DNA of 58,417 nt from positions 1-58,417 of IMG/VR virus record IMGVR_UViG_3300023097_000004; one strand, given 5' to 3'. This document shows, piece by piece, positions 370 through 51,778 of the stretch. The translations under genes and the position numbers were made by a program. Each line of letters begins with the position of its first letter. Positions within the stretch are counted from its first letter, which is position 1. Under the pieces are notes generated by a model, which saw only the letters and a program-made list of their open reading frames with translations, had not been told where the DNA came from and did not search any database. This DNA comes from a virus.

Positions 370-413
370 GTTTCTCCTGCCGATAGTTTAAAAAGCTAAC
401 GGCAGGAGGAATT
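369..413 (+). promoter_or_regulatory. CCGATA promoter candidate inside an SD-sequestering hairpin (portal)
   Basis: CTCCTGCCG (374-382) and CGGCAGGAG (400-408) form a perfect 9-bp inverted repeat. It extends outward to 369/413 with two G-U pairs and so covers the Shine-Dalgarno AGGAGG of the portal gene. The 5' arm contains CCGATA (380-385), the shared -10-like motif. RNA started about 7 nt after the motif would lack the 5' arm and leave the SD free. Read-through RNA from terminase would fold the hairpin. The hairpin is seen; the promoter role is inferred. Confidence 0.55.
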
Positions 414-2523: not shown

Positions 2524-2551
2524 CCGATGATATCTATTGTTATGACAATGG
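2524..2551 (+). promoter_or_regulatory. CCGATG promoter candidate and small hairpin before protease
   Basis: CCGATG (2524-2529), preceded by G, lies 29 nt before the protease start codon. Downstream, CTATTGT and ACAATGG (2534-2551, one G-U pair, loop TATG) form a hairpin just before the SD GGAGG. Unlike several other sites, the hairpin lies wholly after the expected transcription start. Confidence 0.4.
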
Positions 2552-2557
2552 AGGTAT

Positions 2558-3700
2558 ATGGTGAGCGATCTAGTAATTATTCCTAGTAAGGATTCTGTAG
2601 CTTACGATGAGATGGATGAAGCTCGTATTGAGCTATCTCGCAAGAGTACAGGAACCTTATTCAGGAAGCATATCCTATCTAAGGGTGATCTGATTCATCC
2701 TGCAACAGGTAAGAAGATTAAGATTGATGATGCTTTCGTAAAGCAGTTGAAGAGTAACTTCGATAATAAGGTATGCCCTATCGTTCAAGTACCTCTTGCT
2801 AACGACTCTAACCAGCATGTAGAAGATCCTGATCGTAATGTTGGAGAAGTAATTGACGTAGAGATCAGTGGTGACAAGGTATATGCAGTTATTGATGCAC
2901 GTAAGTCTGTAGATAATTTCAAGAACAAGACTTACATTGGTGCCTCTGCAATGCTTTCACTTGACTACACAGATACTTCAACAGGTAAGAAGTCTGGTCC
3001 TACATTATGTCATGTTGCGGTTACTAATAGACCGTACATTACTAATTTAGAGGATTATGAAGAAATAGTTAAAGCATCAGCCGATAATTCAGAAGAGGCG
3101 GTTCTACTAACTGAACCGGTTGAAACTGTTGTAAACGACGATTCCGGTTCAGAGAACGAACCAGAGGTAGAGGAGCACAAAACAATGACTAAGGAAGAGC
3201 TTATTGCAGCTCTGAAGGATGAGCACAGCATTGATGTTGTAGCTCTTCAGGCTGAGGCAGCTAAGCCAGCCGCTACCGACTCAACTGCCGAGCTTTCAAA
3301 CAGGCTTGTAGCAGCTCTAACAGATGCAGGTGTTGTAAAGCTATCCGCTGATGACACTTCTGCCCCTGTTGAGCAGGTTGTTGGTGCTGTAGTAGAGCTA
3401 GCTAGCGATAACGTAAAGCTAACTAACCGAATTGATGCTCTTGAGCTATCAAATCGTGAGAAGGATGCCAAGGCTGAAGTTAAGGCTAAGGTAGCTGAAG
3501 GATTTATTGACCCTGCTAGCGCAGATGCAATGATCGAGCTTTACATGAGTAATACTGATCTATATAACAAGCTTCTACCAGCCGAGCCAAAGGTTAATCT
3601 AAGTGGCCAGGCTGTAGGTACTTCAACTGATGCTGAAGATTCAAAGGTAGAGCTAGATGTAAACGCTGAAGTAGCCCGTCTAAGCGCTCTAGGCGTCTAA
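2558..3700 (+). CDS. Capsid maturation protease fused to scaffold
   Basis: 380 residues. The first about 170 residues resemble phage Mu gpI-type prohead proteases: G-D-L-I-H-P near 45 and P-L-A-N-D-S-N-Q-H-V-E-D-P-D-R-N-V-G-E-V near 80-100, then I-G-A-S-A-M-L-S near 127-135 and an H-V-A-V-T-N-R-P segment near 150. From about 180 on it is acidic and then helical and Lys/Glu/Ala-rich, typical of a scaffold. The order portal, protease/scaffold, decoration, capsid matches the lambda B-C-Nu3-D-E arrangement. Catalytic residues cannot be assigned with certainty from sequence alone. Confidence 0.8.
   Translation: MVSDLVIIPSKDSVAYDEMDEARIELSRKSTGTLFRKHILSKGDLIHPATGKKIKIDDAFVKQLKSNFDNKVCPIVQVPLANDSNQHVEDPDRNVGEVIDVEISGDKVYAVIDARKSVDNFKNKTYIGASAMLSLDYTDTSTGKKSGPTLCHVAVTNRPYITNLEDYEEIVKASADNSEEAVLLTEPVETVVNDDSGSENEPEVEEHKTMTKEELIAALKDEHSIDVVALQAEAAKPAATDSTAELSNRLVAALTDAGVVKLSADDTSAPVEQVVGAVVELASDNVKLTNRIDALELSNREKDAKAEVKAKVAEGFIDPASADAMIELYMSNTDLYNKLLPAEPKVNLSGQAVGTSTDAEDSKVELDVNAEVARLSALGV
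3185..3700 (+). CDS. Nested scaffolding protein (internal in-frame start)
   Basis: An in-frame ATG at 3185 follows an AGGAG at 3171-3175 (9-nt spacing) and sits exactly where the protease domain ends and the helical, acidic scaffold-like part begins. Translation from here would give a 171-residue scaffold, as with lambda Nu3 inside gene C. The product is inferred from the internal ribosome-binding site and the domain boundary. Confidence 0.55.
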   Translation: MTKEELIAALKDEHSIDVVALQAEAAKPAATDSTAELSNRLVAALTDAGVVKLSADDTSAPVEQVVGAVVELASDNVKLTNRIDALELSNREKDAKAEVKAKVAEGFIDPASADAMIELYMSNTDLYNKLLPAEPKVNLSGQAVGTSTDAEDSKVELDVNAEVARLSALGV

Positions 3701-4216: not shown

Positions 4217-4350
4217 CCGATACTTAAATTAGACACAGACCAACTGGAAGAGCCAAAGTAATGGCGGTGCAGGTCGGGCCTCTTTGAGGTCGCTACTTAT
4301 TTTTTTGGGAAAGCAAAAACTGCGGCCCCTAATTAAAAAGGAGACTCAAA
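4217..4350 (+). promoter_or_regulatory. Major capsid leader: CCGATA motif and terminator-like hairpin
   Basis: CCGATA at 4217-4222 is preceded by TTG and lies about 130 nt before the capsid start. Within the leader, AAGTA (4256-4260) pairs with TACTT (4294-4298), GCG (4264) with CGC (4291), and an inner GCCTC/GAGGT hairpin closes on TTT. Eight T residues follow (4300-4307). This looks like a second terminator or an attenuator inside the 5' leader of the most abundant virion protein. No gene is visible in the leader. Confidence 0.5.
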
Positions 4351-6929: not shown

Positions 6930-6998
6930 CCGATTAACTTAATAGTAAGCAGTGTATAATAGCCGGGCGCTTACGAGCGTTCCGGCTATTTTCTTTAT
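6930..6998 (+). promoter_or_regulatory. Terminator hairpin overlapping a TATAAT promoter, with upstream CCGATT
   Basis: A perfect TATAAT (6955-6960) overlaps the 5' arm of a stem AATAGCCGG (6958-6966)/CCGGCTATT (6982-6990), with an inner CGCT-TACG-AGCG helix and a following TTCTTT. RNA arriving from upstream would terminate here. RNA started at TATAAT would begin inside the 5' arm and escape. CCGATT at 6930-6935 lies further upstream. No good -35 was found for TATAAT. Confidence 0.55.
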
Positions 6999-10321: not shown

Positions 10322-10378
10322 CCGATAATACCTTTAGCTGACGAGATCCCAGGAGGATAAATGCTAAAGGTATTATTG
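10322..10378 (+). promoter_or_regulatory. CCGATAA motif and 14-bp inverted repeat clasping the glycosyltransferase start
   Basis: CCGATAA (10322-10328) overlaps the 5' arm ATAATACCTTTAGC (10325-10338). The 3' arm GCTAAAGGTATTAT (10363-10376) begins at the G of the start codon. The 14-bp repeat is perfect and extends by a G-U and a C-G pair. The SD AGGAGG lies in the 24-nt loop. Read-through RNA would have its start codon in a helix. RNA started about 7 nt after CCGATA would lack nearly all of the 5' arm. Confidence 0.65.
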
Positions 10379-11779: not shown

Positions 11780-11823
11780 CCGATGATATAAAAGAATACT
11801 AGTAGAGGGTTACATTTCCCTCT
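11780..11823 (+). promoter_or_regulatory. CCGATG motif and leader hairpin before tail tube gene
   Basis: CCGATG (11780-11785) is followed 18 nt later by AGAGGG (11804-11809)/CCCTCT (11818-11823), a hairpin with loop TTACATTT. About 75 nt separate the motif from the GTG start. The hairpin would be within the 5' leader. Confidence 0.45.
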
Positions 11824-19180: not shown

Positions 19181-19996
19181 ATGCGTTACTACAGCAACGT
19201 TGCAGTTCTTACTACTCTATCTAACGTAGGTGGTATCTCTACAGGTGCCACCGAAATCACTCCTGCCTCAACAACAGGTTTCCCTTCACAGTACCCATAT
19301 ACTCTTAGATTAGAACCAGATACCTCAAATGAGGAATTGGTAACAGTTACAGGCCCTAAGGGCGGATCTCCTGGTACTTTAATCATTACTCGTGCATCTG
19401 ACGGTACTACCGCCAAAACTCATGCATCAGGTTCAGCTATTGTTCATGGTGTATCTGCTCGTGACTTCCAAGAACCTCAGGATCACATGGCTAACACTAC
19501 ACCTGCTGGTGTGCACGGATTACCCGAATCAGCATGGGAATCTACATTCACCGTATATAAGTCAGTAGATCAGGGTTATTCTAGTGATGTAACTTTGAAT
19601 GACGATACCGTGTTGAAGTTTGCTGCTGTAGCCAATACAAAGTACAAGGTAGAATTATATGCTATCTGTTCAGGTGGTGCAGGAGACATTGTATTAGCTT
19701 GGTCAGTACCATCTGGCGCAGGTGGATTAAGATCAGTTCTTGGCCCTACTGCTGCATCTACTAACCGAGACGATACTAATATGAGAACTGGTGCTCATGG
19801 TTATGGCGCCAGTATCGCATATGGTTTGAACAGTGATGATAACTTCTGGACATCTATTCAGGAGAGGTTCGTAATCTCTATTGGTGCTACACCTGGGAAC
19901 GTAACTCTTCAGCACGCTCAGAATACATCTAACGCTGCTCAGACAGTTATGCGAGCATCTTCATATATGACAGTTACTAAGCTAATCAATGGTTAA
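19181..19996 (+). CDS. Minor tail protein
   Basis: 271 residues, beta-rich. The N-terminal 90 residues (T-T-G-F-P-S-Q-Y-P-Y-T-L-R-L near 25-38, then A-S-D-G-T-T-A-K-T-H near 66-75) are a type of small tail domain often seen before receptor-binding parts. The C-terminal 150 residues are clearly related to the C-terminus of the protein at 25561: both have G-D-I/F-V/K-L-A-W, R-S-V/W-S-L-G-P and an ending A-Q-N-T-S-N-A-A...R-A-S/N-S. Suggests a shared trimeric or carbohydrate-binding domain. Confidence 0.65.
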   Translation: MRYYSNVAVLTTLSNVGGISTGATEITPASTTGFPSQYPYTLRLEPDTSNEELVTVTGPKGGSPGTLIITRASDGTTAKTHASGSAIVHGVSARDFQEPQDHMANTTPAGVHGLPESAWESTFTVYKSVDQGYSSDVTLNDDTVLKFAAVANTKYKVELYAICSGGAGDIVLAWSVPSGAGGLRSVLGPTAASTNRDDTNMRTGAHGYGASIAYGLNSDDNFWTSIQERFVISIGATPGNVTLQHAQNTSNAAQTVMRASSYMTVTKLING

Positions 19997-24559: not shown

Positions 24560-25474
24560 ATGAAAGTGTTTAAGAGTATTCTAGCAGCATCGACAATTAC
24601 AGTGATGACTCTCTTCAGTGCTGCACCAGTATCCGCTAAGCCTAAGGTACCTGTAACAGTAAGCTCTACTACTGTAGAATCTATTGCTCACGCTACAGGT
24701 AAGGGTGATGCACCTGAAAATACTATTCAGGGAATTGATAAGGCTGCATCACTAGGTGCTACCTGGGTAGAGATTGATATTAGATGGAACAGGTCTAATA
24801 TGCCTATCGCTATGCATAATGCAGAGGTAGATCCTACTACTAATGGAACAGGTCTACTGAATAGTTATTGGCTTGGACCCATTAATGATTTAGATGCTGC
24901 TGATTATGATCAGTGGGATGACAAGAATGCTAATGGTACTTGGGTATATCCTCAATACCACGGTACTTATGTAGGTGATGGTGGAGATGTAAAGGCTAAG
25001 GTTCACCCACCTTATGGTTGGGAATTCTTCAATGCCGCATCAGTAGATAACATCAAATTATTGATGGACATTAAGGAGACTCCTACACAGGAACAGGCAG
25101 CAAACCTATACTACTATATCACTAGCTTCGGGTATGAGTCCAAGGTTATCTGGCAGGGAACTGCCGCAAGTATCGCAGCTATGAAGAGCTATGGTTACAA
25201 TAACCTAACCTATTACTTGTTTGAAACTCCTGCATCAGGAACTATGCGTACAGGAGAATCAATTCAGGCTATGGGAGCTTCAGGAATTACTGTTAACTGG
25301 CCTGCTGTCAATGCTAATTTTGTTAACTACTATCATGCATATGGTCTTCAGGTATTTACTTGGACTACTAATAATGCTGCTGATGATGTTCCTGCAAGAT
25401 GGACTGCTCTTAATAACGCTGGTGTAGATGCAATCATTACTGATCAGCATGATGTGCTGAGAGCGATGTTCTAA
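24560..25474 (+). CDS. Glycerophosphodiester phosphodiesterase-like enzyme with signal peptide
   Basis: 304 residues. A Sec-type signal peptide is visible: M-K-V-F-K, a hydrophobic core, then A-P-V-S-A-K-P with likely cleavage after A. The GDPD barrel follows: A-H-A-T-G-K-G-D-A-P-E-N-T near 42-54, W-V-E-I-D-I-R near 70-76, M-H-N near 87, L-M-D-I-K-E near 168 and D-A-I-I-T-D near 293. The usual H-R-G is H-A-T here. The family hydrolyses glycerophosphodiesters, including teichoic acid units. Its place inside the tail operon suggests cell-envelope degradation. A signal peptide on a virion protein would be odd, so secretion from the infected cell is an alternative. Confidence 0.72.
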   Translation: MKVFKSILAASTITVMTLFSAAPVSAKPKVPVTVSSTTVESIAHATGKGDAPENTIQGIDKAASLGATWVEIDIRWNRSNMPIAMHNAEVDPTTNGTGLLNSYWLGPINDLDAADYDQWDDKNANGTWVYPQYHGTYVGDGGDVKAKVHPPYGWEFFNAASVDNIKLLMDIKETPTQEQAANLYYYITSFGYESKVIWQGTAASIAAMKSYGYNNLTYYLFETPASGTMRTGESIQAMGASGITVNWPAVNANFVNYYHAYGLQVFTWTTNNAADDVPARWTALNNAGVDAIITDQHDVLRAMF

Positions 25475-25484
25475 GGAACAGATA

Positions 25485-25533
25485 CTTACCTACACTTGGA
25501 TCTGAGTGAAGAGAGTACCGATTTAGTAGTAAG
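25485..25533 (+). promoter_or_regulatory. CCGATT motif with surrounding imperfect inverted repeat
   Basis: CCGATT (25518-25523) lies 37 nt before the tail fibre start. CTTACCTAC (25485-25493) and GTAGTAAG (25526-25533) can pair with one bulged C, enclosing the motif. Weaker than the other sites of this type. Confidence 0.4.
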
Positions 25534-25560: not shown

Positions 25561-26646
25561 ATGTCAGGAACAACCCCCAGAGTGGGACTTTACTTACCAG
25601 CAGATGATGGTAGTGAACCAATCAATGTAGCTACGGATCTAAACGACAACTTAGAGAAGATCGATGCTACTATGGGGTTTGTTCCTGCTCTGGAATCTAC
25701 TCCACCATCAACTACATTTAATGGTATGGGTAGATATAATACTGATACTGGTAAAGTAAGCTATAACAAGGCAGGTGTATGGACTCAGATCCTATCTGCT
25801 GGTGCGGCATTCGTAGGAGATATCCTTATGGATACTGCTAAGAAGATTGGTATTGGAACTTTAGTACCTAACTCAGTAATCGATGTTGTTGTAGCTACTA
25901 TTGCAGCACAACCTACTTTATTGAGATTCAGACAGGCAGCAGATACTCAATCACGTATGCAGCTTGATCATGATGGAATCAAGTTCGGACCTGGTAACGC
26001 TCTACCAGAGGTGCACTTGTACCGCCCTACAACAGCTCAGCTAGCTCTAGCAGGGGCAGGTCTATCACTAGGTAGTACTCTTGATGTTACAGGTGCTACG
26101 AGTGTAAATGATTTAGATGTATCAGGTGATTTAAACCTTGGTGGAGACGTAGTTACCGATTTAAATGTCGTAGGTAATATTTCAGGAACAGGTAAAGGCT
26201 ACACCCAGGTAATTCGAAAGACTACTGATGCAACAAGAACATCTAATGCTACAACTTCAGTAGATCCAGATATGGTTGTAGCATTAGCAGCAAATACAAA
26301 TTACCTTATCGAATTCTATATGATGATCTCAGGAACAGCAGGAGACTTTAAACTTGCTTGGAATGCACCTGCTGGATCTACGGTTTATCGTTGGTCTCTT
26401 GGTCCTGATGTAGCTGCAACATCTAACTCTAACGTAACAATGAGAACTAGTATTCACGTACCAGCCTCAGAACCAGCATTCGGAGTATTCTCAGATACTT
26501 CATGGAGTGGAGCGAAAGAAACAATTATTGTCCTTAATGGTGCAACAGCAGGTAACTTCCAATTGAAGTGGGCACAGAACACATCTAATGCTGCGGTAAC
26601 TACATTAAGAGCCAATTCATTTATGTTAGTCAGAAAAATTGACTAA
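25561..26646 (+). CDS. Tail fibre / receptor-binding protein candidate
   Basis: 361 residues, AGGAGG upstream. An N-terminal attachment-like part (P-R-V-G-L-Y-L-P near 6-13) is followed by a beta-repeat middle and a C-terminal domain related to that of the protein at 19181. The middle region (D-V-T-G-A-T-S-V-N-D-L-D-V-S-G near 180) looks like a triple-helical stalk. Receptor unknown. Confidence 0.62.
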   Translation: MSGTTPRVGLYLPADDGSEPINVATDLNDNLEKIDATMGFVPALESTPPSTTFNGMGRYNTDTGKVSYNKAGVWTQILSAGAAFVGDILMDTAKKIGIGTLVPNSVIDVVVATIAAQPTLLRFRQAADTQSRMQLDHDGIKFGPGNALPEVHLYRPTTAQLALAGAGLSLGSTLDVTGATSVNDLDVSGDLNLGGDVVTDLNVVGNISGTGKGYTQVIRKTTDATRTSNATTSVDPDMVVALAANTNYLIEFYMMISGTAGDFKLAWNAPAGSTVYRWSLGPDVAATSNSNVTMRTSIHVPASEPAFGVFSDTSWSGAKETIIVLNGATAGNFQLKWAQNTSNAAVTTLRANSFMLVRKID

Positions 26647-26694
26647 AGTAACAAGATCAATTATACTTAAGATAAGTAACTGTTTTACTTATCT
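26639..26694 (+). promoter_or_regulatory. Sigma70 promoter overlapping fibre stop codon, with hairpin at start site
   Basis: TTGACT (26639-26644), 17-nt spacer, TATACT (26662-26667). AGATAAGTAA (26670-26679) and TTACTTATCT (26685-26694) form a perfect 10-bp stem with loop CTGTT beginning 2 nt after the -10. The expected start site is inside the 5' arm. This promoter would drive the holin candidate and possibly the helicase/sigma block. Confidence 0.65.
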
Positions 26695-26711: not shown

Positions 26712-27041
26712 ATGGGAACCCTAGCTCTTATTGCTGCTGTAGTAAAGAAGTTTGTTGACTTTGTACGTCAGCTACGTGGTAAGGATACAAGTGCAATTGT
26801 TACTCAGCTACTAGCTTGGGTACTTGGAATTGTGGCTGTATACCTAACTGCTCACGTAGACTTCGCTTCAGCAGTCAGCTTTGCAAACATGTCTCTAGAC
26901 CAGATGGGACTATTGACACAGACTGTTCTAGGTATTCTAGTAGGTTCAGTTGGATCTGTTGGTAAGGATGCCCTAAAGGCCCTTGACAATAACCAGACAG
27001 AGGCAGCACCTAAGTTGGTACCTGACACTTACGAAAAGTAG
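26712..27041 (+). CDS. Small membrane protein, holin candidate
   Basis: 109 residues, AGGAGG upstream. Two hydrophobic segments (about 34-52 and 67-90), short charged N-terminus and a soluble charged tail. Position right after the tail fibre genes is a common site for lysis genes. No endolysin gene is adjacent, so the holin call is tentative. Confidence 0.5.
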   Translation: MGTLALIAAVVKKFVDFVRQLRGKDTSAIVTQLLAWVLGIVAVYLTAHVDFASAVSFANMSLDQMGLLTQTVLGILVGSVGSVGKDALKALDNNQTEAAPKLVPDTYEK

Positions 27042-27049
27042 AGGATAAT

Positions 27050-27220
27050 TTGACGAGCCGACTCCTACATTCACCTGCCGCTTCCCCTAACTGGGACAGG
27101 TATGCTACACTCTTAGAAGATGCATACTTGGCATTCCAAGAAGACGTGATCTACGTCGTGCAGGTAGTGGAGTCGGCTCGTTCGATTTCCACTAAGAAAA
27201 ACAAGCGAACTAAACTTTAG
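27050..27220 (+). CDS. Small TTG-start protein enclosed in a 13-bp inverted repeat
   Basis: 56 residues from TTG 27050 with AGAGGATA just upstream. Middle part W-D-R-Y-A-T-L-L-E-D-A-Y-L-A-F is an amphipathic helix; the end is strongly basic. ACGAGCCGACTCC (27053-27065) and GGAGTCGGCTCGT (27169-27181) are a perfect inverted repeat around most of the gene, and inner hairpins CTTGG-CATT-CCAAG and GACGT-GATCT-ACGTC are visible. It could be coding, a structured RNA, or both. No family recognised. Confidence 0.5.
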   Translation: MTSRLLHSPAASPNWDRYATLLEDAYLAFQEDVIYVVQVVESARSISTKKNKRTKL

Positions 27221-27228
27221 GAGTAAGC

Positions 27229-28836
27229 GTGCTGTTTGAGGCTAGTAAGCTGCCAGCGGCAAAAAAGGCAGCCGCAGCCAATAGAGTTAGAACACTAAAA
27301 GACGTAAAGCTACCAGATTTAAAATATTTTAATAGTGATCCTTGTGCTAACCATGAGGTCCCAAACCCTGCCTGCCAACAGTGCGGGGTTATTTTTCGCG
27401 CTCATCAGCGAGTGGGGGTAGCCTGGCTATTCTTAGCTGAAAAAGGATTGCTAGCTGATTCTGTCGGAACAGGAAAGACTATTCAAGCCGCTGGAATGCT
27501 CGCTATTATGAAAGAGGCCGGTGAGCTTGAAGAGGATAAAGTATTAGTAATCTGTAGACCTGCTGCCGTACCTCAGTGGGAAGATCAGCTAAATAGGCTT
27601 CTCAAGGACGTAAAGGTAATTGTAGGTGATGGTCCTAAGAAGAAGCGTATTGATAAGTACTTAGCGGCAGATTGGAATATCTGCGTCATTAGCTATCAGA
27701 TGCTTATCAATGATTTAGAGGCACTAGAACTTGCCTTTAATTTCCGTGCTGTATTTATTGATGACGTTGACCCTCTCCGCAATGGAGATACTGCAACATC
27801 ATATGCAATTAACAGGATTACCCGCAAGAGCGCACGTATTCCTATTCTTACAGGAACGCCTCTTCAGAAAAGGCTAAATGACCTTTATCACGTACTTCAA
27901 CCTCTTAACATTAGAGATATTTTAGGCTCGCCCATCTCCTTCGAGAGGAGGTATCTAGATAAGCAAACTGTAACTGAAACATCTAATGGTAAGATGATTA
28001 CTAGTAAGCGTGTAGTAGGTTATAGACATCTTGATGAATTTAAGGAAAAGATTGCGCACTTAACTCTAAGGCGTACAGCGGCAGATATTGATGATGTTGA
28101 TCTTCCTGCTGTAATCTCTACTAACGTATTCCTCGATCCTTATCCATTGCAGATGGAAAAGTACAATGACCTCAAGGCCGGTGTATTAAGAATTATCAAG
28201 GCCGAGGGCACTGAGGTTAAGAGAGCTACAGCTATTGCCAAGTTCATTTACGGAGCACAAATCTGTGGAGGACTTGCAGCATTAGGTGAGGCTGATAGGC
28301 CAAGGACATCAGTTAAGCTGGATTGGCTTGAAGATAAGTTAGTAGATGGTGACCTTAGCGAAGATAAAGTAGTAACCTTCATCAACTTTAGAAATAATGT
28401 TCGTGCCCTTCAGGCAAGGCTAGATAGAGCAGGAGTTCAATACGTTACTATTTGGGGAGAGAATAAGAATAATGCTGAGCGCTATGCTGCACAGCAGGAA
28501 TTCTGGCAGAACCCTGATTGTAGAGTATTGATTGGTACAACCTCAATTGAGCAGTCACTAAACCTACAGATTGCTAGGCATCTAGTAAATGTGGATATGA
28601 TTATGAATCCTTCAAGAATGGAACAGCTAGCCGGTCGTGTAAGGCGAGATGGCTCAGCTCATAAGTCAGTTTACGTTCATAACCTTCTTACTATAGGTAC
28701 GCAGGAGGAAGGTTATCTTCCTGCTCTTGAGCGTGAGCAGGCTCTTATTGATCATATCTGGGATTCTCGTAGTGAATTGTTTGCTGCACTATCTCCACTT
28801 GAATTGCTTCAAATGATCGGGGGTAGTAGTAGGTGA
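27229..28836 (+). CDS. SNF2-family DEAD/H helicase
   Basis: 535 residues, GTG start with AGGAG upstream. Motifs in order: zinc-like C-x9-C-x2-C near 39-52, Walker A L-A-D-S-V-G-T-G-K-T (75-84), motif Ia I-C-R-P-A-A-V-P-Q-W (108-117), motif II I-D-D-V-D (177-181), motif III T-G-T-P-L-Q-K near 208, and in the second domain I-N-F-R near 385, T-T-S-I-E-Q-S-L-N-L-Q near 436 and Q-L-A-G-R-V-R-R near 466. Remodels or translocates on duplex DNA in replication, recombination or transcription. Overlaps the sigma factor gene by 4 nt. Confidence 0.9.
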   Translation: MLFEASKLPAAKKAAAANRVRTLKDVKLPDLKYFNSDPCANHEVPNPACQQCGVIFRAHQRVGVAWLFLAEKGLLADSVGTGKTIQAAGMLAIMKEAGELEEDKVLVICRPAAVPQWEDQLNRLLKDVKVIVGDGPKKKRIDKYLAADWNICVISYQMLINDLEALELAFNFRAVFIDDVDPLRNGDTATSYAINRITRKSARIPILTGTPLQKRLNDLYHVLQPLNIRDILGSPISFERRYLDKQTVTETSNGKMITSKRVVGYRHLDEFKEKIAHLTLRRTAADIDDVDLPAVISTNVFLDPYPLQMEKYNDLKAGVLRIIKAEGTEVKRATAIAKFIYGAQICGGLAALGEADRPRTSVKLDWLEDKLVDGDLSEDKVVTFINFRNNVRALQARLDRAGVQYVTIWGENKNNAERYAAQQEFWQNPDCRVLIGTTSIEQSLNLQIARHLVNVDMIMNPSRMEQLAGRVRRDGSAHKSVYVHNLLTIGTQEEGYLPALEREQALIDHIWDSRSELFAALSPLELLQMIGGSSR

Positions 28837-29561
28837 ATTACGATAAAGATACTCTGATCCTACAGCATCTTAGTTTGGCTAAGCAGATTGCGCTGCGAGA
28901 GTGGCGCACTGCTACCCATGCATTAGATAAAGATGACATGCTAGGATTAGCTTATTTAGGTCTTACTGATGCGGCTAATCGCTGGGAATCGTACTGTGAA
29001 CGTAAAGGGTATGAGCCTAGTGCTGTGCAGTACTTCAAGGTCTTTGCTAGCCTAAGGATTCGTGGTACTATCAGGGATAGTATACGTTCAGATGATTGGG
29101 CTACCAGAACTCTCAGAAGTAAATCTAAGAGACTAAAAGAGGCAGGCCAGGATGAGGGAGTACCTGTAGAGGTACTTGCTGAACGTACTGAGATGACTGT
29201 ATCTGAAATCAATAAGGTCAATGCTAGATTAGCTGCTAGGCCAGTCAGTTTAGATGCTCACCTTAACACATCTGGATCAGGATATGAATCAGGTAACTCT
29301 AATGAGAATCAAGTAAAGGATGAAATCGATACAGAAGGTTCAGTATTCGCAAAAGAGATGACAGATATCTTCATTGATACTGTTCGTAGTCTTCCAATAG
29401 CTGAGCAACTTGTATTGGTACTACATTACTACAGTAGACTAGATTTTAGAAAAATTTCAGAGGAACTTGATTTAGCTGAACCTAAAATTTCTCAATTACA
29501 TGCTTCGGCAGTGTCATCAGTTAAAGAAGCATTATTATACGCAGCAGTAGAAAGAGGATAA
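28833..29561 (+). CDS. Sigma factor of the FliA/WhiG (sigma28-like) group
   Basis: 242 residues, GTG start overlapping the helicase stop. Region 2 near 33-100 has D-D-M-L-G-L-A-Y-L-G-L-T-D-A-A and the hallmark F-A-S-L-R-I-R-G-T-I-R-D-S-I-R-S-D-D-W followed by R-T-L-R-S-K-S-K-R. This matches the RIRGAxxDxLRSxDWxPRxxR signature of FliA/WhiG and the related SigB/SigF group. Region 4 near 187-235 is a helix-turn-helix with R-K-I-S-E-E-L-D-L-A-E-P-K-I-S-Q-L-H. FliA/WhiG sigma factors read a GCCGATAA -10. CCGATA-like motifs precede many late genes here, so it is probably the late transcription switch. It is inferred, not shown. Confidence 0.88.
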   Translation: MNYDKDTLILQHLSLAKQIALREWRTATHALDKDDMLGLAYLGLTDAANRWESYCERKGYEPSAVQYFKVFASLRIRGTIRDSIRSDDWATRTLRSKSKRLKEAGQDEGVPVEVLAERTEMTVSEINKVNARLAARPVSLDAHLNTSGSGYESGNSNENQVKDEIDTEGSVFAKEMTDIFIDTVRSLPIAEQLVLVLHYYSRLDFRKISEELDLAEPKISQLHASAVSSVKEALLYAAVERG

Positions 29562-31735: not shown

Positions 31736-31798
31736 TTGACAAGGCTGGTCTGATACACTAGACTGGCCTTGCTTCATATACCGATAATTTTAATATGA
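31736..31798 (+). promoter_or_regulatory. Tandem promoter region with inverted repeats
   Basis: TTGACA (31736-31741), 17-nt spacer, TAGACT (31759-31764). Arms 31740-31751 and 31760-31771 pair over 12 bp with two G-U pairs and contain the spacer and -10. Just downstream CCGATAA (31781-31787) lies in the loop of CTTCATAT/ATATGAGG (31772-31779, 31793-31800, one G-U). Two promoter types may therefore serve the primase/clamp-loader operon. Confidence 0.6.
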
Positions 31799-33886: not shown

Positions 33887-34084
33887 GTGTTAGTGCATGA
33901 GGCTATCGAATTAGAAGTAAAATTATATGTTGGTTATTGTGAATTAGCAGCAAAGCATGAGCCAGATGAGTATATCTACAGGTTGATGGCTCATGCTGTC
34001 TTTTATCATATTCTTGAGCTACGTAGCACTAACCGATATTCCCCTCTTGGTGTCTTTGTAACGAGTAAACTCACCGATTCTTAA
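33887..34084 (+). CDS. Small hypothetical protein
   Basis: 65 residues from GTG 33887 (AGGAG 12 nt upstream; GTG 33893 is an alternative start). Helical with aromatic residues; no motif. A CCGATT (34074-34079) lies over its 3' end, 47 nt before the next start, and may be a promoter element for the following gene. Confidence 0.45.
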   Translation: MLVHEAIELEVKLYVGYCELAAKHEPDEYIYRLMAHAVFYHILELRSTNRYSPLGVFVTSKLTDS

Positions 34085-38599: not shown

Positions 38600-41023
38600 A
38601 TGTCTACAGTTAATAAGAATTATGATGTAGTACGTTCCACAGAAGAGTTAAGTCAATTCTTTGATAAGATCGTCGCAGAAGGTAAGCCATTTGGTTTCGA
38701 TATTGAAACTGGATATCACGGTCCTGATGATGATCGAGGTTCACTTAAGCTAGAGACAAATTTACTTGTAGGTTTTAGCTTTACTAATTCACTTAACTGG
38801 GCAAGGTATGTACCTCTTGCTCATGATTTTGCAGAGAACATTACAGATCATATGCGAGTAGCAGAAATTCTATGGTCAGCATTTAAGACAAAACTATTAG
38901 TAGCTCACAATGTAGGATTCGAACTTAGGCGAATGGCTAGGTTCTTCCGAGAAATGCTATCTGATCATCCTCTATACGGTAAAGAAGTTACAGAATCTAA
39001 GGGATATTTCCCTGTTCGTTCTTGTACCCAGGTAGAGGCATATATTCTTAGAGAATTCCAGGAGTTTGGTCTTAAGGATCTGGTACTTAATAAATTCCAG
39101 CATCAGATGATCAAGTTTGAAGAACTATTCGATAAGCTAACTGAGAAGAACAAGAAGGCTTTTCGATTCAATGTACTTGACCTGACAAATAAGGTCATTA
39201 CGTATGCTTGTGAGGATGCACTCTGGTGTCTAGGTCTTCATCTAGATGCTTACCCTAAAGTTAAAGATCAGCTCATGTATAAAGTGGATATGGAAATCTG
39301 CTATGTCATTTGTGACATGGAAGATTGTGGTATTCGCTATGACTGGTTCTTTATGCAGGAGGCATCAGCAAGAGCTAAAGACTTCACAGCTTTGTTGAAC
39401 GACGAGATTCAAACTGAACTAGCTCACCTACTGGGTATGGGTGAAACTAAGCTCAACGTAAATCTGGCAAGCCCTAAACAGCTATCTGAGATCCTGTACG
39501 ATCGCCTAGGTTTGGTAGTCAACATCTACACCACAAGTACTAAGGGTGCAGCTAAGGCTGATAAGAAGATGTCTACAGGTAAAATGGCTCTTGATGCGCT
39601 AGCTGAGAAGCATCCTGTCGTCAAGAAGATTTCTCAATATAAGAATCTTAAGCGTCTTACCGGATCATTCCTGGATAAGTATGCAAAAGATTATGGGTAT
39701 GCTCCTGATGGAATGGTACACCCATCACTTAACCAGAGTTATGTGCGTACTGCTCGATTCTCATCAGCTAATCCAAACCAGCAGAATCAGCCATCAATCA
39801 ATATTAAGACACCAGAGGGCAAGTACCTAAGCTATTGGTACACACTTAATAATGGAATTGAATTTAAGCTGAACTTCAGGGATGCAGTAATTGCACCAGA
39901 GGATTTTTACATCCTTGGATTCGACCTTTCACAGGCTGAGTATCGTGCTGCCGCTGGACTGGCAGATGAGACAGCTCTTATTGAGGCATTCGCTAATGAT
40001 GAGGATGTCCACACTAAGGTAGCTGCTATGATGTTCAAGGTGCCTATGGATAAAGTTACTAAAGAACTTAGGTCAAAGGCTAAGACTCTAGGATTCGGAC
40101 TTTTGTTCGGTATGACTGCATCAGCTCTGGCAAAAAGGCTTAACTGTTCTATTGAAGAGGCTGAGGATCTGTTTGCTCAGTACTTCGCAGCATTTCCTAA
40201 GCTTAAGCGTTGGACAGATAAGCAGATTGAATACGGCTATGAACATGGTTATGTAGTAACTAAGTTTGGCCGTAAGATCCCTATCTGGGAATTGCAGGAC
40301 TCTCGCCGCTGGATTCGTGAGGGTGGAGAGCGTGCCTGCTTCAATTATCCTGTTCAGGGTGGAGCTACAGGTGACTATGTTCGTATTGGAATGGTTAGAG
40401 CCCGTAAAGTAATTCAGCAGAATGGTTGGCAGGATAAAGTTCGACTGTTCATGAACGTTCACGACGCTCTTGAATTCTATGTTCACCGCAGCCTTGATCC
40501 AGTAGAGGTAATCCATGCTCTACAGCCAGCAGTAATCTTTGATGTTCCTGGCTGGCCTAAGATGGTAGCTGACTGGCATATCGGAAAGCGTTGGGGATCA
40601 GTAAAGGAGCTAGAGCTAGATTCAGATGGAACAGTAAGAGTTAAGGATGGACCTACTCTAGGAACTAGATACTTACCTACACTTCAAAATGAAGAGGTAG
40701 CAGTGGAGGAACCTAGTAGGAATACATACTTACCTACACTTGGATCTGAGGATGAGCAGCAGTCTAAGCACATCATTGTGGAGCTGAAGAATATGCCTAC
40801 TAAGGATAAGTTCAAGGCTTTCATTGATTATGCGACCAAGGTAGAGGGAACTAATACTATTGAAGTCAAGACTCCTGTAGGTGTAGCTGCAATTCCTATT
40901 ACTACAGGATTAACTCCTGAGAAGTATGCATCTGTTATCCGTAGTTTGTTCGATGATGCTGAGACCTACTATAAGGTTTCTGAGCAGGCGCTTGATGATC
41001 TTGCTGCTGACATTGCATTCTAA
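38600..41023 (+). CDS. DNA polymerase I-like (family A) with 3'-5' exonuclease domain
   Basis: 807 residues, AGGAGAG upstream. Exonuclease: F-G-F-D-I-E-T-G near 30-37 (D-x-E), L-V-A-H-N-V-G-F-E near 98-106, and Y-A-C-E-D-A near 199-204. Polymerase: motif A D-L-S-Q-A-E-Y-R near 441-448, motif B R-S-K-A-K-T-L-G-F-G-L-L-F-G near 491-504, motif C V-H-D-A near 619-622. The last about 130 residues are an unusual extension with a duplicated Y-L-P-T-L (about 690 and 711) and a small alpha/beta tail. Main phage replicase. Confidence 0.92.
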   Translation: MSTVNKNYDVVRSTEELSQFFDKIVAEGKPFGFDIETGYHGPDDDRGSLKLETNLLVGFSFTNSLNWARYVPLAHDFAENITDHMRVAEILWSAFKTKLLVAHNVGFELRRMARFFREMLSDHPLYGKEVTESKGYFPVRSCTQVEAYILREFQEFGLKDLVLNKFQHQMIKFEELFDKLTEKNKKAFRFNVLDLTNKVITYACEDALWCLGLHLDAYPKVKDQLMYKVDMEICYVICDMEDCGIRYDWFFMQEASARAKDFTALLNDEIQTELAHLLGMGETKLNVNLASPKQLSEILYDRLGLVVNIYTTSTKGAAKADKKMSTGKMALDALAEKHPVVKKISQYKNLKRLTGSFLDKYAKDYGYAPDGMVHPSLNQSYVRTARFSSANPNQQNQPSINIKTPEGKYLSYWYTLNNGIEFKLNFRDAVIAPEDFYILGFDLSQAEYRAAAGLADETALIEAFANDEDVHTKVAAMMFKVPMDKVTKELRSKAKTLGFGLLFGMTASALAKRLNCSIEEAEDLFAQYFAAFPKLKRWTDKQIEYGYEHGYVVTKFGRKIPIWELQDSRRWIREGGERACFNYPVQGGATGDYVRIGMVRARKVIQQNGWQDKVRLFMNVHDALEFYVHRSLDPVEVIHALQPAVIFDVPGWPKMVADWHIGKRWGSVKELELDSDGTVRVKDGPTLGTRYLPTLQNEEVAVEEPSRNTYLPTLGSEDEQQSKHIIVELKNMPTKDKFKAFIDYATKVEGTNTIEVKTPVGVAAIPITTGLTPEKYASVIRSLFDDAETYYKVSEQALDDLAADIAF

Positions 41024-48148: not shown

Positions 48149-48198
48149 AAAAAGAGCGAACCGATATTGTAATAGACGTATCGGTTCGCTCTTTTTAT
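48149..48198 (+). promoter_or_regulatory. 18-bp perfect inverted repeat containing CCGATA; terminator/promoter
   Basis: AAAAAGAGCGAACCGATA (48149-48166) and TATCGGTTCGCTCTTTTT (48179-48196) pair perfectly around a 12-nt loop. As RNA it is a strong terminator with a U tract. CCGATA (48161-48166) is the end of the 5' arm, and the expected start site is in the loop. RNA from upstream should stop here, while RNA begun at CCGATA would pass. It isolates the tail fibre gene from the early operon. Confidence 0.72.
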
Positions 48199-50618: not shown

Positions 50619-50647
50619 TTGACAGAAGCTTACCGATAAGGTAAAGT
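50619..50647 (+). promoter_or_regulatory. Promoter of the first tRNA cluster
   Basis: TTGACA (50619-50624), 17-nt spacer that includes CCGATA (50633-50638), TAAAGT (50642-50647). TTACC and GGTAA flank the GATAA core. Either both promoter classes overlap here or the CCGATA is a chance match. Confidence 0.62.
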
Positions 50648-51596: not shown

Positions 51597-51740
51597 ATGG
51601 TTAAAGTTGATATGACTAATTGGCAATGTCGATTGCCTCGATGCAGCTCAGTAGGTAAGTTTAAAATTACTGAAGAGCGTACTAAAAGTTATGTTACTAA
51701 GTGTAGGTCTTGCAGCCTAGTTAATGTTTTTATGAAGTAA
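51597..51740 (+). CDS. Tiny zinc-ribbon protein directly joined to tRNA-Cys
   Basis: 47 residues starting right after C74 of tRNA-Cys. W-Q-C-R-L-P-R-C-S-S near 9-18 and K-C-R-S-C-S near 35-40 give a C-x4-C...C-x2-C ribbon. No SD upstream other than tRNA sequence, which fits leaderless translation after tRNA release. Confidence 0.6.
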   Translation: MVKVDMTNWQCRLPRCSSVGKFKITEERTKSYVTKCRSCSLVNVFMK

Positions 51741-51741
51741 T

Positions 51742-51778
51742 CCGATAATACTCCTATCACATAGATGGGAGTATTTTT
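51742..51778 (+). promoter_or_regulatory. CCGATA motif overlapping a terminator/SD hairpin
   Basis: CCGATA (51742-51747) runs into AATACTCCTATC (51747-51758), which pairs with GATGGGAGTATT (51764-51775) over 12 bp with one G-U; a U tract follows. The 3' arm holds the SD GGGAG of the next gene. TAATGTTT at 51722 matches the sigma28 -35 consensus TAAAGTTT in 7 of 8 positions at the standard spacing. Confidence 0.6.

Follow-up and report, generated by a model that had tools for sequence, protein, structure and literature searches.

Here we describe a putative phage late transcription system in the DNA of a virus (IMG/VR record IMGVR_UViG_3300023097_000004; the whole 58,417-nt stretch was analysed and is called the window below). 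The window encodes a sigma factor homologous to FliA and WhiG, and a short motif, CCGAT, stands on one strand just before its virion genes; the motif is kept at these places in relatives, takes a different form in different lineages, is accompanied by no conserved -35 element, and shares out the genome with promoters of the host type between virion genes and the rest, all of which is shown by comparison of sequences. It is very likely that the protein is a late sigma of the phage that acts on virion promoters through an extended -10 element alone, although contact between sigma and motif, the start sites and the timing of transcription are inferred from sequence alone.

The sigma homology rests on several searches. 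The match to the TIGR02479 profile covers residues 8-234 of 242 (E 8e-33), that to the sequence of a solved FliA structure (6pmi) covers residues 4-231 (E 1e-13), the protein matches PHROG 351 (sigma factor), and regions 2, 3 and 4 all align with FliA/WhiG over the full length. At 114 bits it misses the curated NCBIfam cut-off for TIGR02479 (189.6 bits), and because neither this cut-off nor the -35 feature is met, we call the protein FliA/WhiG-like and not a member; with that qualifier, the claim of an earlier note, made by a model from the letters of the window, that this gene encodes a FliA/WhiG-type sigma factor has held. Residues D81, R84 and R91 of FliA, which reportedly read the GCCG part of GCCGATAA (Koo et al. 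2009), are present in the alignment as D82, R85 and R92 of the window sigma. The protein is thus like FliA (sigma28) and WhiG in its full-length regions, in these three residues and in the -10 core CCGAT, and unlike them in its lower score, in having no conserved -35, in serving phage virion genes and in a -10 that drifts within the family. An AlphaFold model made with four sequences was too poor to use (pLDDT 54). Distant matches to the sigma (24-29%) were also found in human faecal contigs, which are unannotated and may be bacterial.

Enrichment of CCGAT is positional, on the plus strand just before genes, and not window-wide. Over the whole window CCGATD shows no excess (42 observed, 36.9 expected) and CCGATA is near chance (18 against 13.6 expected). 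Among plus-strand 5-mers, CCGAT is nonetheless the most intergenic (11 intergenic and 15 coding occurrences in a window that is ~10% intergenic, p 1.6e-5), and it ranks first among 5-mers in the stretch 20-70 nt ahead of same-strand starts (11/48, p 1.4e-6), with a single match on the minus strand of those upstream regions; in the close relative G001 it is likewise the most enriched word at this distance. Comparing intergenic with coding counts was a check proposed in the earlier note, and the intergenic concentration on the plus strand held, with the total count at expectation. A search for 8-mers over-represented against a Markov expectation proved insensitive and was dropped.

The CCGAT(A/G/T) sites named in the earlier note were all found where it had placed them (Table 1). 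Its distance of 30-50 nt between motif and start codon held in part, most distances being 34-59 nt with exceptions at the capsid gene (134 nt) and at 6952 (22 nt). Of the weaker sites it had proposed over gene ends, 34074 is supported by a relative and 37294 is not, no support for a motif site having been found there or at 34033; the site at 50633 remains ambiguous, and the conserved site inside the protease gene was absent from its list. A host-type TTGACA-17-TAGACT promoter (31736) lies just upstream of the motif at 31781, and the two perhaps form a dual promoter, a possibility only. In the window a perfect 21-bp inverted repeat has the motif at 48161 as its left arm; we rejected the reading that it is merely the arm of a terminator, as G003 has the motif without the hairpin.

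Table 1. Positions in the window of the sigma gene, the motif sites and the host-type promoter ahead of the sigma gene run
Feature	Position	Strand	Among the 11 conserved sites	Relatives and remarks
CCGATA, putative late -10 before portal gene (418)	380..385	+	yes	kept in G003, G006
CCGATG, putative late -10 before head protease gene (2558)	2524..2529	+	yes	kept in G003; lineage versions in most relatives
CCGATA, putative internal late promoter at +523 of protease gene	3081..3086	+		lineage-own versions in relatives
CCGATA, putative late -10, 134 nt ahead of major capsid gene (4351)	4217..4222	+	yes	kept in G003, G006
CCGATT, putative late -10 before 6952 (start codon uncertain)	6930..6935	+	yes	CCGATA at equal distance in G002
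CCGATA, putative late -10 before glycosyltransferase gene (10361)	10322..10327	+	yes	kept in G002, G003, G006
CCGATG, putative late -10 before tail tube / major tail protein gene (11839)	11780..11785	+	yes	most of 59 relatives have the motif or a lineage version
CCGATT, putative late -10 before 25561	25518..25523	+	yes	kept in G002, G003
Host-type promoter-like TTGACT-17-TATACT before gene run 26712 - helicase - sigma	26639..26667	+		
FliA/WhiG-like phage sigma factor	28833..29561	+		242 aa; profile, structure and PHROG matches
CCGATA before 31828	31781..31786	+	yes	CCGATA in G002, CCGATC in G003
CCGATT before 34127, overlapping gene end	34074..34079	+	yes	kept in G002
CCGATA before tail fibre gene (48214)	48161..48166	+	yes	kept in G003
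CCGATA before tRNA genes, in spacer of TTGACA-17-TAAAGT promoter	50633..50638	+		ambiguous; comparable only with close relative
CCGATA before 51779	51742..51747	+	yes	kept in G001, G003; upstream -35-like sequence not kept

Three relatives were obtained through the sigma, G001 (95-97% DNA identity) and the more distant G002 and G003 (~73%). At 11 testable sites from the earlier list (marked in Table 1), CCGAT is kept before orthologous genes in G002, G003 or both while the flanking DNA has changed, and of all 1024 5-mers none is shared in greater excess before orthologous genes, the Shine-Dalgarno words GGAGG and AGGAG ranking below it; 7- and 8-mers common at these places were mostly Shine-Dalgarno-like or noise and were set aside. 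The G003 record (135,654 bp, with a DnaB gene spanning the contig ends) has further motif sites at 92275, before a collagen-like gene, at 96181, before two paired genes of which the second resembles an M15-type peptidase, and at 101435, ahead of genes leading to the terminase (gene labels by eye). Upstream enrichment of CCGAT is absent in the unrelated phages with Mu-type portals Blueberry, JackieB and Finn; Finn has an annotated sigma, but not one among the matches to the window sigma.

The earlier suggestion of a relaxed -35, clear only at 51722, did not hold, as no conserved -35 exists. The -35-like TAAAGTTT at that position is not kept even in a 95% identical relative, and across 27 sites of the window clade and 71 others the -35 region carries almost no information; these sites were picked by the motif itself, and only positions outside it are informative. 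The FliA -35, TAAAGTTT, at a spacing of 11 nt has a mean match of 3.15/8 against 3.25 at control offsets. The strongest upstream position in the window clade, an A found 21 nt before the motif in 17/27 sites, is absent from the 71-site set, in which purines are favoured at 12 and 15 nt past the first base of the motif, a placing compatible with the inferred start sites. What the sites do share in the window lineage is an extended -10, [TA][AG]CCGAT[ATG][AT]T, and the window-clade core CCGAT matches the FliA -10, GCCGATAA (consensus quoted in PMC2859248).

The wider family consists of large phages of about 125-141 kb, and the genome behind the window is probably ~135 kb. A cultured member of the family is Microbacterium phage Magritte, which infects Microbacterium foliorum (capsid 52% and portal 51% identical, gene order similar), and its gene 47 (OR553905, 47155-47895), annotated as 'DNA binding protein', is a homologue of the sigma (26-28%) and a candidate for re-annotation as such; the Magritte genome paper does not mention a sigma (PMC11663251). 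We detected the sigma in 26 of the 37 records searched, and match positions show that the other 11 stop short of where it would be expected, which leaves no relative without the sigma to serve as a test. The question raised earlier, whether relatives without the sigma keep the motif, meets the finding that the sigma is present in every relative whose contig reaches the locus.

Versions of the motif (CCGAT, TCGATAG, GCGATAG, ACGATAG, ACGATAATA and CCAATGG) occupy matching places across most sigma-bearing relatives, and most of the 59 tail tube loci found with a profile of the tail tube protein have CCGAT or a version upstream of that gene. Taken as repeated 8-11-mers in the late modules and counted on the plus and minus strands, these versions are GCGATAGTA in G019 and G021 (10/0 and 9/0), ACGATAGTA in G036 (8/0), ACGATAATA in G037 (7/0), CGATATCC in Magritte (7/0), CCGATATC in G023 (5/0) and CCAATGGTA in G034 (5/0), where each lineage-specific 9-mer would be expected by chance, on length alone, ~0.15 times in 40 kb. 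An intergenic k-mer search with no CGAT prior put the versions at the top in G019, G036, G037, G034, G018, G016, G031 and G030, and did not put the motif at the top in the window, Magritte, G026, G028 or G035. In G035 neither the k-mer search nor inspection of the protease gene found a recognisable motif; at the positions of FliA D81, R84 and R91 its sigma carries N, S and P. Single CCGAT sites in GC-rich genomes are weaker evidence because chance CCGAT words are many there. Sites in Magritte often lie 5-8 nt before ATG or GTG, a spacing that would fit a -10.

Examined relatives with a protease orthologue, G035 excepted, carry their own version of the motif inside that gene at +499 to +538 and in the same frame. 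The versions include TCGATATCC (Magritte, in its scaffold/protease gene, 18889), GCGATAGTA (G019, G021), ACGATAGTA (G036) and CCAATGGTA (G034); near matches, found by eye after strict patterns had failed, are CCGATGG (G031) and TCGATGG (G018), and in G028 CCGAATAC was seen, again by eye, both inside the gene and upstream of it. Because the encoded residues vary along with the motif, selection at this site appears to act on the DNA. An in-frame ATG lies downstream of the 3081 site, and it is plausible that the putative internal promoter yields a nested scaffold protein, a product for which we have only inference.

Promoters of the host type have a complementary distribution. Sites of the form TTGAC-16/18-TANNNT outside genes number zero in the window's first 26.6 kb and about a dozen beyond (Fisher p 0.005, categories counted by hand), and in G003 the virion module has few of them and the remainder of the record many; motif sites cluster on virion genes, host-type promoters on the rest of the genome. 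Sequences resembling the host-type promoter ahead of the sigma gene run were also seen, by eye, in G002, G003 and G006. Separately, the tRNA-rich region holds three related copies of a promoter-like TTGACA-17-TAAGGT/TAAAGT sequence (50471, 50618 and 53532), and 15 tRNA-like genes, 14 of them confirmed by Rfam, lie between 37419 and 58268. A scan of genome contigs with the tail tube protein for a clue to the host returned no relative, and an actinobacterial host is a guess, possible in the light of Magritte and of the -10 style of the TTGACA promoters.

In the mechanism we propose, the sigma would be produced early from the gene run 26712-29561 behind its host-type promoter and would join host RNA polymerase, and virion-gene transcription would then begin at promoters made of one extended -10 with no conserved -35, D82, R85 and R92 of the sigma reading the CCG part. 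One such promoter would lie within the protease gene, perhaps driving a nested scaffold protein, and across the family sigma and promoters would have drifted together; in Magritte, late 5' ends are predicted 5-9 nt after [CT]CGATATCCCTG. The earlier inference that the phage turns on its late genes with its own sigma is supported by these results. That the sigma reads the motif remains inferred, as do the start sites, the timing and the nested product, there being no transcription, binding, start-site or in vitro data.

Covariation between sigma and motif is suggestive only, and may or may not reflect recognition. The 17 phage sigmas whose motif starts wholly or in part with C have R or K at FliA position 91, like FliA. 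The residue is lost in G019 (S), G021 (E) and G037 (V), where the first motif base is G, G and A, losses that represent about two independent events, G021 being a sister of G019. In G034 the sigma has D81M and the motif is CCAAT. As exceptions, R91 is kept in G018 (first base T) and G036 (A). The association of residue 91 with the first motif base reaches p 0.010, uncorrected for relatedness or column choice, and eight other sigma columns outrank it; given these exceptions, the uncorrected p and the better columns, we rejected the covariation as proof of recognition. A bolder reading is that, within this one sigma family, changes at the base-reading residues have altered the -10 that is recognised (with T, A or G in place of the first C, CCAAT in place of CCGAT, and a CCGAATAC form), and that the -35 has been given up although region 4 is still there; we would give this no better than an equal chance of being right. 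If it is, each sigma would be matched to its own set of promoters, to the exclusion of the others.

Among rival explanations, the one that survives best is that CCGAT is the site of another phage regulator, an activator or repressor, working on host-sigma promoters, with the sigma serving some other purpose. In its favour, two window sites (31781 and 50633) adjoin or fall inside host-type promoters, the motif is short, and sigma and motif share a phylogeny, such that another co-inherited phage regulator is not excluded. We nevertheless consider it unlikely: no host-type promoter stands near the sites in 1-26 kb, the motif keeps to one strand, a short distance before genes, and abuts Magritte start codons as a -10 would, it agrees with the FliA -10, and in G035, the only lineage without a recognisable motif, the sigma has lost FliA D81, R84 and R91 together. 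Less likely still is that a FliA/WhiG sigma of the host reads these promoters, with the phage copy serving as a backup or modulating host genes. The window-clade -10 does equal the bacterial sigma28 consensus and the host is unknown, but the FliA -35 is not conserved at the sites, and many relatives that retain the phage sigma have a motif that differs from GCCGATAA. That the motif is an accident of chance or composition singled out by eye, for which the whole-window counts at expectation might speak, is all but ruled out by orthologous sites kept in 73% identical DNA, by lineage 9-mers repeated on one strand only and by prior-free recovery in eight genomes.

Our preferred reading, a late sigma acting through an extended -10, is not new in principle, as phage-encoded late sigmas are already known from T4, SPO1, phiEco32 and 7-11. 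T4 gp55 and SPO1 gp28/gp34 are essential sigmas that redirect the host polymerase to later classes of phage genes (PMC9429907), and differ from the window protein in sequence. T4 late transcription additionally requires a sliding clamp and a co-activator; in the present system no partner has been identified. The phage sigma phiEco32 gp36 sends the host core enzyme to single-element, -35-less middle/late promoters before virion genes, as proposed here by sequence only, in a phage that likewise has host-type (there sigma70) promoters on its early genes. Unlike the window sigma, which retains region 4, gp36 has no region 4 homology, the reason its authors give for the missing -35, and its consensus, tAATGTAtA, is unrelated to the CCGAT motif (PMC8948821). 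Late promoters of phage 7-11 match those of its relative phiEco32 in position and differ in sequence (PMC8948821), much as positions are kept between relatives here despite sequence change; 7-11 gp47 is, however, of another sigma type, with a bipartite consensus, GTAAtg-16-aCTA (PMC8948821). What sets the present system apart is its FliA/WhiG-like source, the presence of region 4 without a conserved -35, a putative promoter internal to a gene, and a motif that exists in a series of versions. We found no earlier description of such a system in the literature searched, which left out most subscription papers.

These results make the late promoter set of a large-phage family predictable from sequence alone, and the cultured Magritte makes the prediction testable. 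If the drift reflects changed recognition, matched sigma/promoter pairs could reveal the residues that set -10 specificity in a widespread type of alternative sigma, show how a sigma with region 4 manages without a -35, and offer candidate orthogonal transcription parts for laboratory use.

Several further elements were observed in the window. A structured RNA element (4231-4298) lies between the putative capsid promoter and the capsid gene, with 12 predicted pairs of which 9 have pair-preserving changes on both sides (19 sequences). It occurs once each in 19 of 24 records searched, is absent from three unrelated phages and has no Rfam match; its model was built from most records searched, G004, G007, G008, G015 and G028 not being used, and it may possibly act in cis as a leader of the capsid mRNA. 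The 25561 protein (25561-26646) resembles the 19181 protein (19181-19996) in its C-terminal part (~41% over 146 aa in the close relative), for which reason 25561 may encode a virion protein. Finally, a family of 33-nt repeats with GATACTTACCTACACTT is present at 25474-25506, 40661-40693 and 40718-40750, and related copies occur in G003 and also before the 25561 orthologue in relatives.
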